Below, one piece after another: positions 26,460 to 33,711 of a DNA stretch of 42,901 bases. Position 1 is the first letter of the stretch, and the number at the start of each line of letters is the position of its first letter. A model generated the notes under the pieces. That model searched no databases, was not told the origin of the DNA, and worked only from the letters and a program-made list of their open reading frames with translations. The translations under genes and the position numbers were made by a program. Source of the stretch: Thermomicrobiales bacterium. GTDB taxonomy: Bacteria > Chloroflexota > Chloroflexia > Thermomicrobiales > CFX8. The stretch is taken from contig JAMLIA010000023.1 of NCBI GenBank assembly GCA_023954495.1, forward strand, positions 1 to 42,901, written 5' to 3'.

Positions 26460-27136
26460 GTGTCTCGCTATCGTGCATCGGCGTTGCTTGCCGTCGTAGC
26501 AGCCTTCGCGCTGCTCCTTACCTCCGTACCGCTACCATCACTCGGTGCCCGCCCGTCGATTACTGCCGGGCTCCAAACCTCACCTTCGCTGCCTCCAATT
26601 GACCCTGCCGTCAGCGCCCAGTGGGACGCTGCAGATGGCCCTGTCGCGCGCTTCGAAGTGACGCGCGGCTGGGTCTGGGGGCCGTCAATTACCGCTATCA
26701 GTGTCGACGATGTACCCGGAACAGACGGCGCAGTGCGGCGACAGGTCTACTTCGACAAGGGCCGTCGCGACGTTTGTCGATCCCGCCGCCGATCTCGCGG
26801 CCGTGGTTCGCGGTCGGCGCTCAACTGGTGACCGAACTGCTCTCGGCGCGATTCAGACGGCGGACGGTCAGTGGATTGAGCGCGGCCCTGCCCAACATTC
26901 CGGTCGTCGGCGATGTGGACCAGCCCAATCCAGTAACCTACGCGACCCTCGGCACACTCTCGCGCCTGCCAACCGACGAGTCGCCGGTGCTCGCCGACGA
27001 CGCGACCGGCTCAGCCGTCACCGCCTTGCTGCACCCAGACGGGTCCGTGTCGGCAGACGGCCTGCCCGCGCCGGCGATCGCCATCGGTCGCTTCGACGAA
27101 CAAACTCGTCACAATATCGCCTGCGGCGGTTGTTGA
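26460..27136 (+). pseudogene. Secreted WMWGP-type protein, broken 5' part
   Basis: N-terminal half of a large exported protein. The start is GTG 26460 with GGGGAAGG six bases upstream. A signal peptide (ALLAVVAAFALLLTSVPLPSLGA) is followed by ARFEVTRGWVWGP. Further homology to the intact protein at 32803-33711 continues only by changing frame: near 26760 (VYFDKG to ATFVDPAAD), near 26800 (to PWFAVGAQLVTELLSARF), near 26853 (to QTADGQWIERGPA), near 26889 (to NIPVVGDVDQPNPVTYATLG) and near 27120-27136, where an in-frame TGA ends the segment. Alignment with the homologue shows no block missing, so single-base errors or recent decay are both possible. The frame downstream continues the same protein. 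Confidence 0.7.
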
Positions 27137-28477
27137 GTGGGAAGCACATCGCAGCCGTATTCCGCACTGTACGTCCTCGGCCACCCACTGAGCGAGCCGT
27201 ACTGGGTGCAGACGGAGGTCGCCGGTGTCGAGCAGTACGTCCTGCTCCAGGCATTCGAGCGCCGGGTGCTGTCGTACACACCCGGGAACCCGGACGGTTG
27301 GCAGACCGAATCCGGCAACGCCGGACAGCACTACCGCATCTGGCGCAACCTGCATACGATCGCAGATCCACGACTCGCGGCGCTTGCCGTCACGATCCCG
27401 TACGGTGATGAAATCGTCCAGGCGGCCACCGAAGCCGGCGTCGATCCGTGGCTGATGGCGGCGATCGCGACAGCCGCGTCGGATGGCAACCCGCTATCGA
27501 CGACCGACGACGGGCATACCGGGCTCATGGGTATCCGTTGGAGCGATGTGCCACGCGATCCGCAGGCAAATACCCGGATCGCGGCGGCGGAGCTCGCCCG
27601 CATCAGTGCCGCGACGAACGACACGTCGCTCATCCTCGCCCGCTACTACGCCGGGGACAACGCTGACCCGGCTGCAGGAAGCGTTGCGGCGTTCGTCAGT
27701 TCCGCGACAACAGCATTGAACGCTCTCCACGCGCGCATCAGCATCCCTGAGGCAGCCACCAACGCGGCATCGAGCGACCCAGCCAATGCACCCCTCGTGC
27801 AACTCCCCGCTCGCTTTGACAGCAGTTGGTGGTCGCAGTCGCTAGCCTGGTATGCAAGCTGGTCAGGTGCGCGCCCGGGCGCTGCGGATGATCCGGCGGA
27901 CCGCTGGTGCGTCGCAGATGGCTACGTGCCCGGCGACCGCCTCCAGCTCACGGCCAACGGCAAGACGACCGACTGCACTGTCGGCGCGACGCCGGGATCA
28001 GTCGGCCTGCCAACCCTGGCTGACGGCAGCATCGGCATCAGCGCGGCGGCGGCAACGAGCCTGTCGCTCAACGGCGAAGCCGATGGCGCTGTGATTGAGC
28101 TCAGCACACAGCCAACGGTACAAACGCAGTCCGCCGAGCAACTCGTTGGCGAGGGCGCTGCCGCCTACTACAGCGCCAGCTACGACCGCGCCTGGTGGGA
28201 GCGCACAATCGGTCTGCACGCCAGTTGGGGCGGTGCGGTGAGCGGCTGGGCCGTCGACCCGAACGGCTACTACTGCGTCCATCCGGACTTCCGGCCGGGC
28301 CAGCGCCTGCGGCTCGTCGCCAACGGCATCACCATCGAGTGCACCATTGGCGATACGGTCCAGGCAGCGCATCAGGCGCAGTGGCGCTCGCGCTGGGCGA
28401 TTGAGCTCTCCTGGAGCAGCTTCGCCGCACTCGGCCTCGACAAGAAGAACGTCGTCCAGGTGTTTGCAATCGAGTAA
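27137..28477 (+). CDS. Secreted protein, 3' part: FERR/GQHYY module, degenerate SLT domain, two barrel repeats
   Basis: The intact 446-codon 3' segment of the preceding gene; alone it would begin with GTG right after the TGA and lack a signal peptide. Residues 1-70 complete the module shared with 32803-33711 (QAFERRVLSYTP, GNAGQHYRIWR). Residues about 85-175 match a soluble lytic transglycosylase domain (GVDPWLMAAIATA, then GHTGLMGI, then ARYYAG), but the catalytic Glu of the Glu-Ser pair is Ala114 and the Gln of GLMQ is Gly132. Two tandem ~105-residue repeats follow (about 224-330 and 340-446), each with paired Trp, WCVADGYVPGDRLQLTANG or YCVHPDFRPGQRLRLVANG, and a second Cys in CTVG/CTIGD. 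They resemble double-psi barrel domains such as RlpA. A role in binding the cell wall is inferred. Confidence 0.75.
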   Translation: MGSTSQPYSALYVLGHPLSEPYWVQTEVAGVEQYVLLQAFERRVLSYTPGNPDGWQTESGNAGQHYRIWRNLHTIADPRLAALAVTIPYGDEIVQAATEAGVDPWLMAAIATAASDGNPLSTTDDGHTGLMGIRWSDVPRDPQANTRIAAAELARISAATNDTSLILARYYAGDNADPAAGSVAAFVSSATTALNALHARISIPEAATNAASSDPANAPLVQLPARFDSSWWSQSLAWYASWSGARPGAADDPADRWCVADGYVPGDRLQLTANGKTTDCTVGATPGSVGLPTLADGSIGISAAAATSLSLNGEADGAVIELSTQPTVQTQSAEQLVGEGAAAYYSASYDRAWWERTIGLHASWGGAVSGWAVDPNGYYCVHPDFRPGQRLRLVANGITIECTIGDTVQAAHQAQWRSRWAIELSWSSFAALGLDKKNVVQVFAIE

Positions 28478-28499: not shown

Positions 28500-28529
28500 G
28501 CGCGGGATAGTGCTTGCGCTGTCCCGCGC
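28500..28529. terminator. Bidirectional hairpin between convergent genes
   Basis: GCGCGGGA (28500-28507) pairs with TCCCGCGC (28522-28529) between the stop of the secreted protein gene and the stop of the metalloprotease gene, overlapping the latter by one base. Confidence 0.6.
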
Positions 28530-29557
28530 TAATTCGGGTTCATCACCGTTGCGCCATCCCAGTTGTCGACATAGTCGAGGAAGCGACGGATGTGATCGGC
28601 GAGCTCGGCGGTGGTGGGGTAGCCATCGACGCGGGTGAGCGGGCGCTGGTAGGCGTGCGACGCCGGCTCGTGGGATTGCACGGCTGCGTAGAACTCGACC
28701 CGAGCGCCGTTGGCTTCCGGGATCGCATGAACCAGCAAGCCACGCTGGAACCCGGCAGATGACCAGCGAATGACGACCTGCGCTGCTTCGGCCTGATCGT
28801 CGGTGGCGATCGTCACCGGATGCCGCCAGCCGTTGCTGGCTGTGCCAGCTGCGACCGCCAGGATACCGGCCAGCTCGCGGCGGCCATCGTCCGGCTGCAT
28901 CTCCGGGCGCGGTCCGGCAAAGGCGGCGAACTCCTGGCGCAGACCGGTGCGGCGTTCATATCCGGCCCGAATACGCGGATCGCGCCAGAGGACGACTCCA
29001 GCGATCAGAATCGCGACGTGCAGCACGCCGATGACGGCGCTGAAGACCGGCGTCTGCCGCGAATAGATCGTCTCCCAGTCGCCGGAGACGCCACCCACCG
29101 CATCGATCAGCGGATAAAACACGAGCGCATTCAGCAGGCTGAAGGCACCGAAGACGAACAGCAGATAGGTGATCGCCACGTTGCCGGGCTTGAACCAGGC
29201 CCAGGCAAATGCGCCGAATCCAAGGATGACGTTCACCAGCGTGCCTGCAAAAGCGATCCAGGCCAACTCGATCGGCGTGTAGCGCCCGATATGCTCGACG
29301 TAGCCGTAGTAAAGGAAGAAGCCCCAGCCGACGATCTGGCCGCCGAGCGCCTTGACGAAGACCGCATGTCCGAGCTCGTGGAGGATGACGCTGATCGGCA
29401 CCAGCACGAACAGCGCAAGGCGGGTCAGGCGCTGGCGCTCGTCCATCGTCAGGCGATTGTCGAACAGCGCCTTGCGGTTTCGGACGGCGTCGACGAGCGA
29501 CGCGACGGCAATGACCGCCAGCATCACCGTGAAAATCGGCATCCCACCATCAAACAC
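28529..29557 (-). CDS. Site-2-type (M50-like) membrane metalloprotease
   Basis: Multi-pass membrane protein of 342 residues. A zinc-protease motif HELGH (His60-Glu61, His64) lies inside a hydrophobic helix (VLVPISVILHELGHAVFVKA). A later membrane segment has LLNALVFYPLIDAVGG, which fits the Asn/Pro/Asp region that supplies the third zinc ligand in site-2 proteases. About five further helices precede a ~130-residue soluble C-terminal part with no known motif. Such enzymes cut helices inside the membrane, often of anti-sigma factors, but no target is linked here. The start is uncertain: GTG 29557, or ATG 29542 (MPIFTVML). It is transcribed toward the secreted protein gene. Confidence 0.78.
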   Translation of the reverse strand: MFDGGMPIFTVMLAVIAVASLVDAVRNRKALFDNRLTMDERQRLTRLALFVLVPISVILHELGHAVFVKALGGQIVGWGFFLYYGYVEHIGRYTPIELAWIAFAGTLVNVILGFGAFAWAWFKPGNVAITYLLFVFGAFSLLNALVFYPLIDAVGGVSGDWETIYSRQTPVFSAVIGVLHVAILIAGVVLWRDPRIRAGYERRTGLRQEFAAFAGPRPEMQPDDGRRELAGILAVAAGTASNGWRHPVTIATDDQAEAAQVVIRWSSAGFQRGLLVHAIPEANGARVEFYAAVQSHEPASHAYQRPLTRVDGYPTTAELADHIRRFLDYVDNWDGATVMNPN

Positions 29558-32802: not shown

Positions 32803-33711
32803 TCAGCCGATCGGTGCAGGGACAGGGCTGTTGTCGGCGTAGCGCCAGCGGTAGTAATGCTGGCCGATGTTGCCCGCCTCGACCTGCCAGCCGGCGGCGT
32901 TGTCGGGTGTGTAAGTCAGACAGCGTCGCTCGAAGCACTGAATCAGCACGTCCCGATCGACACCGGCGACCTTGACCGTCGCCCAATACGCCTCGGTGAT
33001 CGGGAAGCCGGTGGCGTAGAACGGATCCTGGAAGATCTTGCCCTGCGCCGTGTTGCCGTTGTCCCAGACGACGCCGCTCGAATTCATGAAATCCCAGAAG
33101 ACGGACGCGACCTGGTGGTCGATGCCCCACGTTTGCAAGCGATAGCCAGCAGTGACGCCAAAGCGCGCCAGGGAGCTGTCGGTGGTTGTCCGGCCATCGC
33201 GGGCGACACGGGTCGTCAGCACCTGGCCGTCCATCGCAGCCGGAGCGTTGAGCAGCCGCAGGAACGTCGCGTAGGTTGGCGCAGTCGGGTTGACCGCATC
33301 ACCGGCGACCGGGATCTGCGCCGGCTCCCAACTCCAGAACAGGTTATCGCCAGCCTGCACGCGCCCGGTAATCAGCTCCTTCGCCAGCAGACCGTTTGTG
33401 ACGTACCACGGGGAGTCGGGGGCAACAGTCGGATCGGTCGTGATCTCCATCCGACTCTTGTCGAAGTACTGGACGATGCGCTTGCCACCGGGCGCTTCGA
33501 CATACGGCTCGATGATGCCGCCGGTGTAGCCCGACGGCCCCCACATCCAGGTGCGGCTGACCGCGACATCCGCGACCGGCTTGTCAGTACGCTGCCAGGT
33601 GGTTTCGAACGCCGGAGTCCAGATCAGCGACCCAGCGCTGGCAGCCGAGGTCGCCAGGGGGAAAACAACGACAACAACAATAAACACCAACGGAATGAAC
33701 CGAGATCGCAC
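32803..33711 (-). CDS. Secreted WMWGP / FERR-LTYTP / GQHYY-RW family protein
   Basis: Exported protein of 302 residues with no known function. A signal peptide (MRSRFIPLVFIVVVVVFPLA, cut near ASA) is followed by SRTWMWGP (55-59). The middle has IVQYFDKSRMEI and TAPTYATFLRLLN. The C-terminus has QCFERRCLTYTP and GNIGQHYYRWRY. I associate these motifs with secreted Chloroflexi proteins, where they often precede other domains. It is the intact relative of the broken protein at 26460-28477, of which it covers only the first half. No enzyme motif is seen; its role at the surface is unknown. GTG start at 33711 with only a weak ribosome site, two bases after the stop of a coding-like fragment upstream. 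Confidence 0.78.
   Translation of the reverse strand: MRSRFIPLVFIVVVVVFPLATSAASAGSLIWTPAFETTWQRTDKPVADVAVSRTWMWGPSGYTGGIIEPYVEAPGGKRIVQYFDKSRMEITTDPTVAPDSPWYVTNGLLAKELITGRVQAGDNLFWSWEPAQIPVAGDAVNPTAPTYATFLRLLNAPAAMDGQVLTTRVARDGRTTTDSSLARFGVTAGYRLQTWGIDHQVASVFWDFMNSSGVVWDNGNTAQGKIFQDPFYATGFPITEAYWATVKVAGVDRDVLIQCFERRCLTYTPDNAAGWQVEAGNIGQHYYRWRYADNSPVPAPIG

Follow-up and report, generated by a model that had tools for sequence, protein, structure and literature searches.

A putatively secreted protein family of the Thermomicrobiales pairs a transglycosylase-like domain lacking its catalytic glutamate with an RlpA-like barrel

Results

A gene with a clean 3' half and a frameshifted 5' half

The window analysed here is a 42,901-nucleotide stretch of DNA from a Thermomicrobiales bacterium (assembly GCA_023954495.1, contig JAMLIA010000023.1). 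The gene under study lies at 26460-28477 on the forward strand, and the features of the locus are as follows.

26460..26549, +: putative GTG start and Sec-type signal sequence (VSRYRASALLAVVAAFALLLTSVPLPSLGA), from the sequence
26607..27349, +: WxWGP/FERR module (N-module), broken by frameshifts in this copy, located by tblastn with seven intact relatives
26770..27150, +: about five single-base frame changes, from the tblastn frame map and three-frame translation
27137..28477, +: 3' half of 446 codons with the end of the N-module, the dead SLT domain and two barrels, from the open frame and codon-position GC
27362..27751, +: SLT-fold domain, residues 76-205, catalytically dead, from PF01464, AlphaFold2 (AF2) and VIA
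27476..27478, +: codon of Ala114 at the catalytic Glu position, from HMM alignment to MltE E64/E64Q, with Ala, Ser, Thr or Val in all relatives
27530..27532, +: codon of Gly132, which replaces the Gln of GLMQ, from the family alignment
27803..28111, +: first barrel repeat, residues 223-325, degenerate, with Ala at both the RlpA His and Asp positions, from BLASTP and alignment
28124..28474, +: second barrel, residues 330-446, the C-terminal barrel of the family, from pLDDT, conservation in all relatives and Foldseek
28274..28282, +: Cys380-Val-His382 of YYCVHP, with the His at the RlpA AH position, from alignment
28340..28354, +: Cys402 to Asp406 of CTIGD, with the Asp at the position of the RlpA catalytic Asp, from alignment
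28529..29557, -: convergent M50-like membrane peptidase, a conserved neighbour, 52% identical to the neighbours of the L043 and L034 homologues
32803..33711, -: intact stand-alone N-module paralogue of 302 aa, a clean copy of the whole module

The initial annotation had described a secreted multidomain protein in which an SLT domain without its catalytic Glu is combined with a Chloroflexota-type WxWGP/FERR module and tandem barrels, and our analysis supports this description. The 3' half was confirmed to be a single open frame of 446 codons (27137-28477), the codon-position GC of which (0.66/0.56/0.79) resembles that of the neighbouring genes. The same gene begins in the 5' half (26460-27136), where frameshifts interrupt it: seven intact relatives match it piecewise and in differing frames in tblastn, and relatives possess hydrophobic N-termini similar to that of the window copy. 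There is one net shift of frame, near 26771, and two compensated short patches, at about 26850-26893 and 27115-27147, were read off the three-frame translation.

At the rate observed in the broken stretch (about five changes in some 380 bases), around 17 indels would be expected in the 1.34 kb of the 3' part, and none is present. As this part is free of shifts and normal in codon composition, we consider a local consensus error more likely than slow decay, and the 5' cluster of frameshifts in the window copy is probably such an error. A less probable reading is that the window gene is dead and its clean 3' half an accident of recent decay. The clustering of about five frame changes within 26770-27150, the degenerate first barrel and the presence of an intact 915-aa paralogue elsewhere in the genome (G000:C26) are all consistent with a dead gene, but uniform decay is very unlikely to have left the remaining 1.34 kb without a stop or a shift, a consensus error fits the indel expectation better, and a neighbour gene is common to the window locus and to the homologue loci in two related genomes. 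The dead-gene reading concerns the window copy only and is compatible with every other explanation of the family considered below. With its frameshifted 5' half and an extra barrel that lacks both presumed catalytic positions, the window copy is in any case the poorest representative of its family.

Distribution and gene neighbourhood of the family

Of 61 genomes, made up of 60 relatives and the one that holds the window, 28 have a match to the 446-residue protein, with members from Sphaerobacter, Thermomicrobium, Thermalbibacter, HRbin26/28 and related genomes. Most of the strong matches are about 550-915 residues long and feature a signal-like N-terminus, the N-module, the SLT-like domain and one barrel; the second, intact member in the window's genome, located on another contig (L031), has 915 residues. 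Across the class, strong matches to the barrel occur in 24 of 158 genomes (two more are borderline), all of which belong to three families of the window's order, which comprises mostly heat-loving Chloroflexota-type bacteria, and the protein family is near-universal in two of the three. One of the 24 genomes, from a different family of the order, encodes a secreted barrel on its own (221 residues; L024, G008:C14); it comes after a proline-rich linker and is accompanied by neither SLT domain nor N-module.

The M50-like peptidase gene adjoins the locus in three genomes (window, L043 and L034); its L043 copy weakly matches PF13398/PF02163, and the window copy matches no Pfam family. While this gene is the conserved neighbour in one family of the order, HAD-phosphatase-like and threonine-aldolase-like genes, named from their sequence, take this place in another. 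A functional operon was ruled out, since the conserved neighbours vary by family and none of them is a wall gene.

A multi-copy N-terminal module

The WMWGP/FERR module noted in the initial annotation is indeed present and spans about 260 residues. It has no match in Pfam or NCBIfam and no convincing match in the PDB (best E 0.0077), and in the Sphaerobacter homologue L044 it is predicted to be folded, with pLDDT mostly above 90. The module (32803-33711, L041, L063-L077, L096-L100) is found in at least 11 copies in the window's genome and in up to 12 copies in other Chloroflexota genomes, fused to unrelated secreted domains that apparently include CAP/SCP, NHL-like repeats, a glycosyl-hydrolase-like domain and others; one such open frame is 2414 aa long. 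No protein joining the N-module to an intact SLT domain was found nearby: in seven stretches of related genomes, taken around partial matches to the 446-residue protein, the module was located by phmmer and is followed by unrelated domains.

An SLT fold without catalytic Glu throughout the family

A Pfam profile search bore out the proposed transglycosylase-like domain, with residues 94-176 matching PF01464 (E=9.7e-5, 22.4 bits against a cut-off of 21.3). The same profile is matched at E<=1 by 25 of the 27 aligned members, the best reaching E=3.2e-10. Structure prediction with AlphaFold2, built on 23 sequences, likewise returned an SLT fold, with pLDDT mostly 78-97 across residues 80-200, and comparison with MltF, LtgA, Slt, MltC and MltE produced VIA Z scores of 12-14 (maximum 14.0) at an rmsd of 2-3.6 A over 112-124 residues; for the SLT domain of homologue L044, Z rises to 16.4.

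Ala114 in place of the catalytic Glu and Gly132 in place of the Gln were both found as originally claimed. Alignment of the family profile to MltE places the Ala114 column at Glu64, which is Gln in the crystallised E64Q variant. We looked for relatives that keep the Glu, which would contradict the initial annotation, and found none: the position is occupied by Ala, Ser, Thr or Val in all 27 members. A private Glu-to-Ala mutation of a decaying copy is ruled out, because Glu occurs in no member, and the alignment indicates that the loss is ancestral to the family. The Gln of GLMQ is retained solely in four members of the Thermalbibacter group (L053-L056). Three canonical SLT genes in the window's genome keep their Glu (in QES, IES and VES), demonstrating that the method does recognise live SLT domains. 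The family thus resembles the SLT-type lytic transglycosylases (PF01464; MltE, MltC, MltF, Slt) in its above-threshold profile match, its fold and its DP..N and G-L-L/M positions, and departs from them in lacking the catalytic Glu in every member and the GLMQ Gln in most, as well as in the fusion of the SLT domain to the WxWGP/FERR module and a barrel.

Nei-Gojobori analysis of ten pairs of relatives put dN/dS at 0.10-0.44 in the SLT domain and at 0.10-0.37 in the N-module; the barrel, at 0.02-0.23, is the lowest of the three domains in all ten pairs. The values for the SLT domain signify that it is still under selection despite being catalytically dead, and therefore kept for something other than Glu-dependent cutting.

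Dead wall-enzyme domains, such as dead LytM domains, are known as regulators. It is conceivable, if rather improbable, that the SLT domain acts in a similar manner as a pseudo-enzyme, docking on and controlling the cell's own functional lytic transglycosylases or amidases. A precedent exists in DipM, the dead LytM protein of Caulobacter, which controls wall enzymes (PMC10336132), and the genome offers three canonical SLT proteins, including SLT-NlpC/P60 and LysM-SLT types, that could be regulated by a domain under purifying selection. However, genomic linkage to those enzymes was not seen, and the SLT domain is more variable than the barrel in every pair compared. What the family shares with the DipM/EnvC-type dead LytM regulators is that a wall-enzyme fold has consistently lost its catalytic residues and yet remains under selection; the fold itself differs, and a regulatory role is putative here.

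Tandem barrels resembling RlpA

The tandem repeats of the initial annotation were recovered by BLASTP, which aligns 27803-28111 with 28124-28474 (E=1e-18, 46% identity over 61 residues). Taken with the profile and fold matches of the SLT domain, this greatly exceeds what chance would produce. In the AF2 model, the second barrel has pLDDT mostly 90-97 and the first 30-65, the low values of the first being explained by an alignment that consists there of the window sequence alone. The tandem arrangement is also found in L034. In a further member (G002:C286, L041:790-3354), a second barrel is located at the extreme C-terminus after a proline-rich linker, and duplication of the barrel may therefore have occurred more than once. 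A barrel tree for dating the tandem duplication was abandoned, the first window barrel being too divergent to place.

In the main barrel of the family, the Asp at the RlpA position (Asp406 in the window copy) and the Cys residues of the motifs are present in 23/23 sequences; at the RlpA His position, 17 have His and the other six Arg or Lys. A disulfide between Cys380 and Cys402 of the second barrel is likely. By eye and by alignment, YYCVHPDFRPGQRL...CTIGD corresponds to AH..LPFGT...VxDRGP of RlpA, and Asp406 falls on the D of the D-R-G-P motif of RlpA-like proteins from Chloroflexota. His and Asp lie 24-25 residues apart in the family, compared with 24 in two Chloroflexota DPBB_1 proteins and 26 in a third. 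Four residues do not vary across the family, phage and RlpA-like sequences, and the Asp is among them. On this alignment, the family Asp would be the same residue as the catalytic Asp of RlpA, and the window copy apparently carries one live and one dead barrel repeat.

Foldseek searches with models containing the barrel within a larger protein retrieved 4avr (E about 1e-3, prob 1.00, TMt 0.60-0.64 for two models) and the expansin 2bh0 (prob 0.99); the VIA lists, filled by SLT chains, contain no barrel structure and are uninformative on this point. The proposed identification as a double-psi barrel was not borne out at the profile level: DPBB_1 (PF03330) has no match at E<=10 to the barrel or to its phage and stand-alone relatives, and no convincing Pfam or NCBIfam match was obtained for the barrel at all. 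A PDB sequence search returned chance antibody matches only. Comparison with Chloroflexota RlpA-like proteins by hhalign was colinear but weak (probability 7.9, E 0.0044), with an unrelated control scoring worse. The C-terminal barrel resembles the double-psi barrel of RlpA and expansins and is probably a divergent relative of it. It shares with the bacterial expansin EXLX1 (2bh0) the Foldseek match, which most likely falls in the barrel, although residue ranges are absent from the output, and differs in that the PDB sequence search found no sequence similarity.

In Pseudomonas aeruginosa RlpA, the Asp of the lytic transglycosylase domain is catalytic, whereas E. coli RlpA lacks this Asp and is structural and naturally dead (PMC9712689). 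The SPOR domain presents denuded glycan to the RlpA barrel (PMC6895207). Similar to RlpA (DPBB_1, PF03330, plus SPOR), the family protein is putatively secreted; its barrel is colinear with that of RlpA, including the places of His and Asp, and is paired with another domain potentially able to hold glycan. In contrast to RlpA, the barrel has no Pfam match, contains two conserved Cys residues and carries some 30 residues, WW among them, ahead of the His motif, and a dead SLT domain stands in place of SPOR, which has no match in any of the 27 members. DPBB_1 proteins were not detected by Pfam in 41 sampled genomes of the window's order.

The description of the protein as non-cutting thus goes too far: as the barrel resembles RlpA, a lytic transglycosylase that uses an Asp, and this Asp is invariant in the main barrel of the family, the protein may still cut the wall. 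We regard it as possible but not favoured that dead SLT domain and barrel are both lectin-like binders, in a wall-binding surface protein that fixes or cross-links a protein-rich envelope. The absence of the SLT Glu from every member, the replacement of the barrel His in 6/23 and the loss of both His and Asp from the first window barrel argue for such a binder, as do the protein-dominated wall with little peptidoglycan reported for Thermomicrobium (PMC2615216) and E. coli RlpA as a known structural, non-catalytic case (PMC9712689). Speaking against it, neither the main barrels of the family nor those of the phages ever lack the Asp, and no other domain is as constrained as the barrel.

Phage-borne relatives of barrel and module

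Short proteins that contain the barrel and have a hydrophobic stretch at the N-terminus are encoded on four viral contigs. One of these proteins (L123) reads AHPDLPFGTRL...VVDRVAP, an intermediate form. In another (L121, with L122 as its near-twin), a mini FERR-like segment comes after the barrel; the barrel gene lies directly upstream of, and overlaps, the gene for an Amidase_2 endolysin, which has a similar FERA segment at its end (L121:4917-6972). The place of that segment at the end of the endolysin suggests that phages of these bacteria use the FERR/FERA segment for wall binding.

Discussion

The family described here is a wall-enzyme pseudo-domain paired with an RlpA-like barrel. The window gene is best explained as a broken or mis-assembled paralogue in an order-specific family of secreted envelope proteins. 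For the family, the explanation that we prefer, and to which we would give roughly even chances, is that the retired SLT domain cradles glycan next to an RlpA-like barrel that may be active, with the Chloroflexota-specific module holding the protein at the envelope. In this mechanism, the signal sequence would export the protein and the WxWGP/FERR module of about 260 residues would anchor it to the cell envelope; the SLT domain, its catalytic Glu permanently gone, would act as a glycan-holding or spacing module that presents substrate to the barrel, the part played by SPOR in RlpA, and the C-terminal barrel would carry out chemistry or tight binding. By analogy with the Asp-dependent barrel of RlpA, we lean towards the barrel acting on the glycan strands of peptidoglycan.

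This explanation draws on the SLT fold that lacks the Glu family-wide while three SLT genes of the same genome retain it, on SLT dN/dS values similar to those of the N-module with the barrel most constrained, on the RlpA-type Asp and, in most sequences, His of the barrel together with its matches to 4avr and 2bh0, and on the phage-borne barrels and the lack of a DPBB_1 protein in the 41 genomes of the order. It is weakened by the missing family-profile match and weak hhalign score of the barrel, by the six barrels with Arg or Lys for His, and by the lack of a partner gene indicative of cell-wall work.

More tentatively, a handover may have taken place, in which an ancestor of two or three of the families exchanged the SLT active site for an active RlpA-like barrel and retained the SLT cleft as a substrate holder; the barrel would then replace RlpA and may suit a protein-dominated wall containing galactosamine. 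Such a wall, with little peptidoglycan and galactosamine replacing glucosamine, has been reported for Thermomicrobium roseum (PMC2615216); this lends plausibility to an unusual wall protein without being proof of one. We found no support for the family being the reported dominant wall protein of T. roseum, which is rich in Pro, Glu, Gly and Ala, as Glu makes up just 4% of the Thermomicrobium members.

A literature search of incomplete coverage revealed neither an SLT domain described as dead across a whole family nor an SLT-barrel fusion. A parallel is that of Rpf, with its SLT-like domain, and Sps (YabE), with an unrelated MltA-like domain, which serve the same function (PMC1084345); Rpf and Sps are alternatives in different phyla, whereas here both domains reside in one protein and the SLT domain is dead. 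The N-module in turn constitutes an unnamed, multi-copy surface module of Chloroflexota, relatives of which appear to sit on phage endolysins. If the barrel is active, the family would represent a new peptidoglycan-remodelling architecture in a group with a reportedly unusual wall, and would add to the idea from Rpf and Sps that SLT and barrel domains replace each other, with both of them united here in a single protein.
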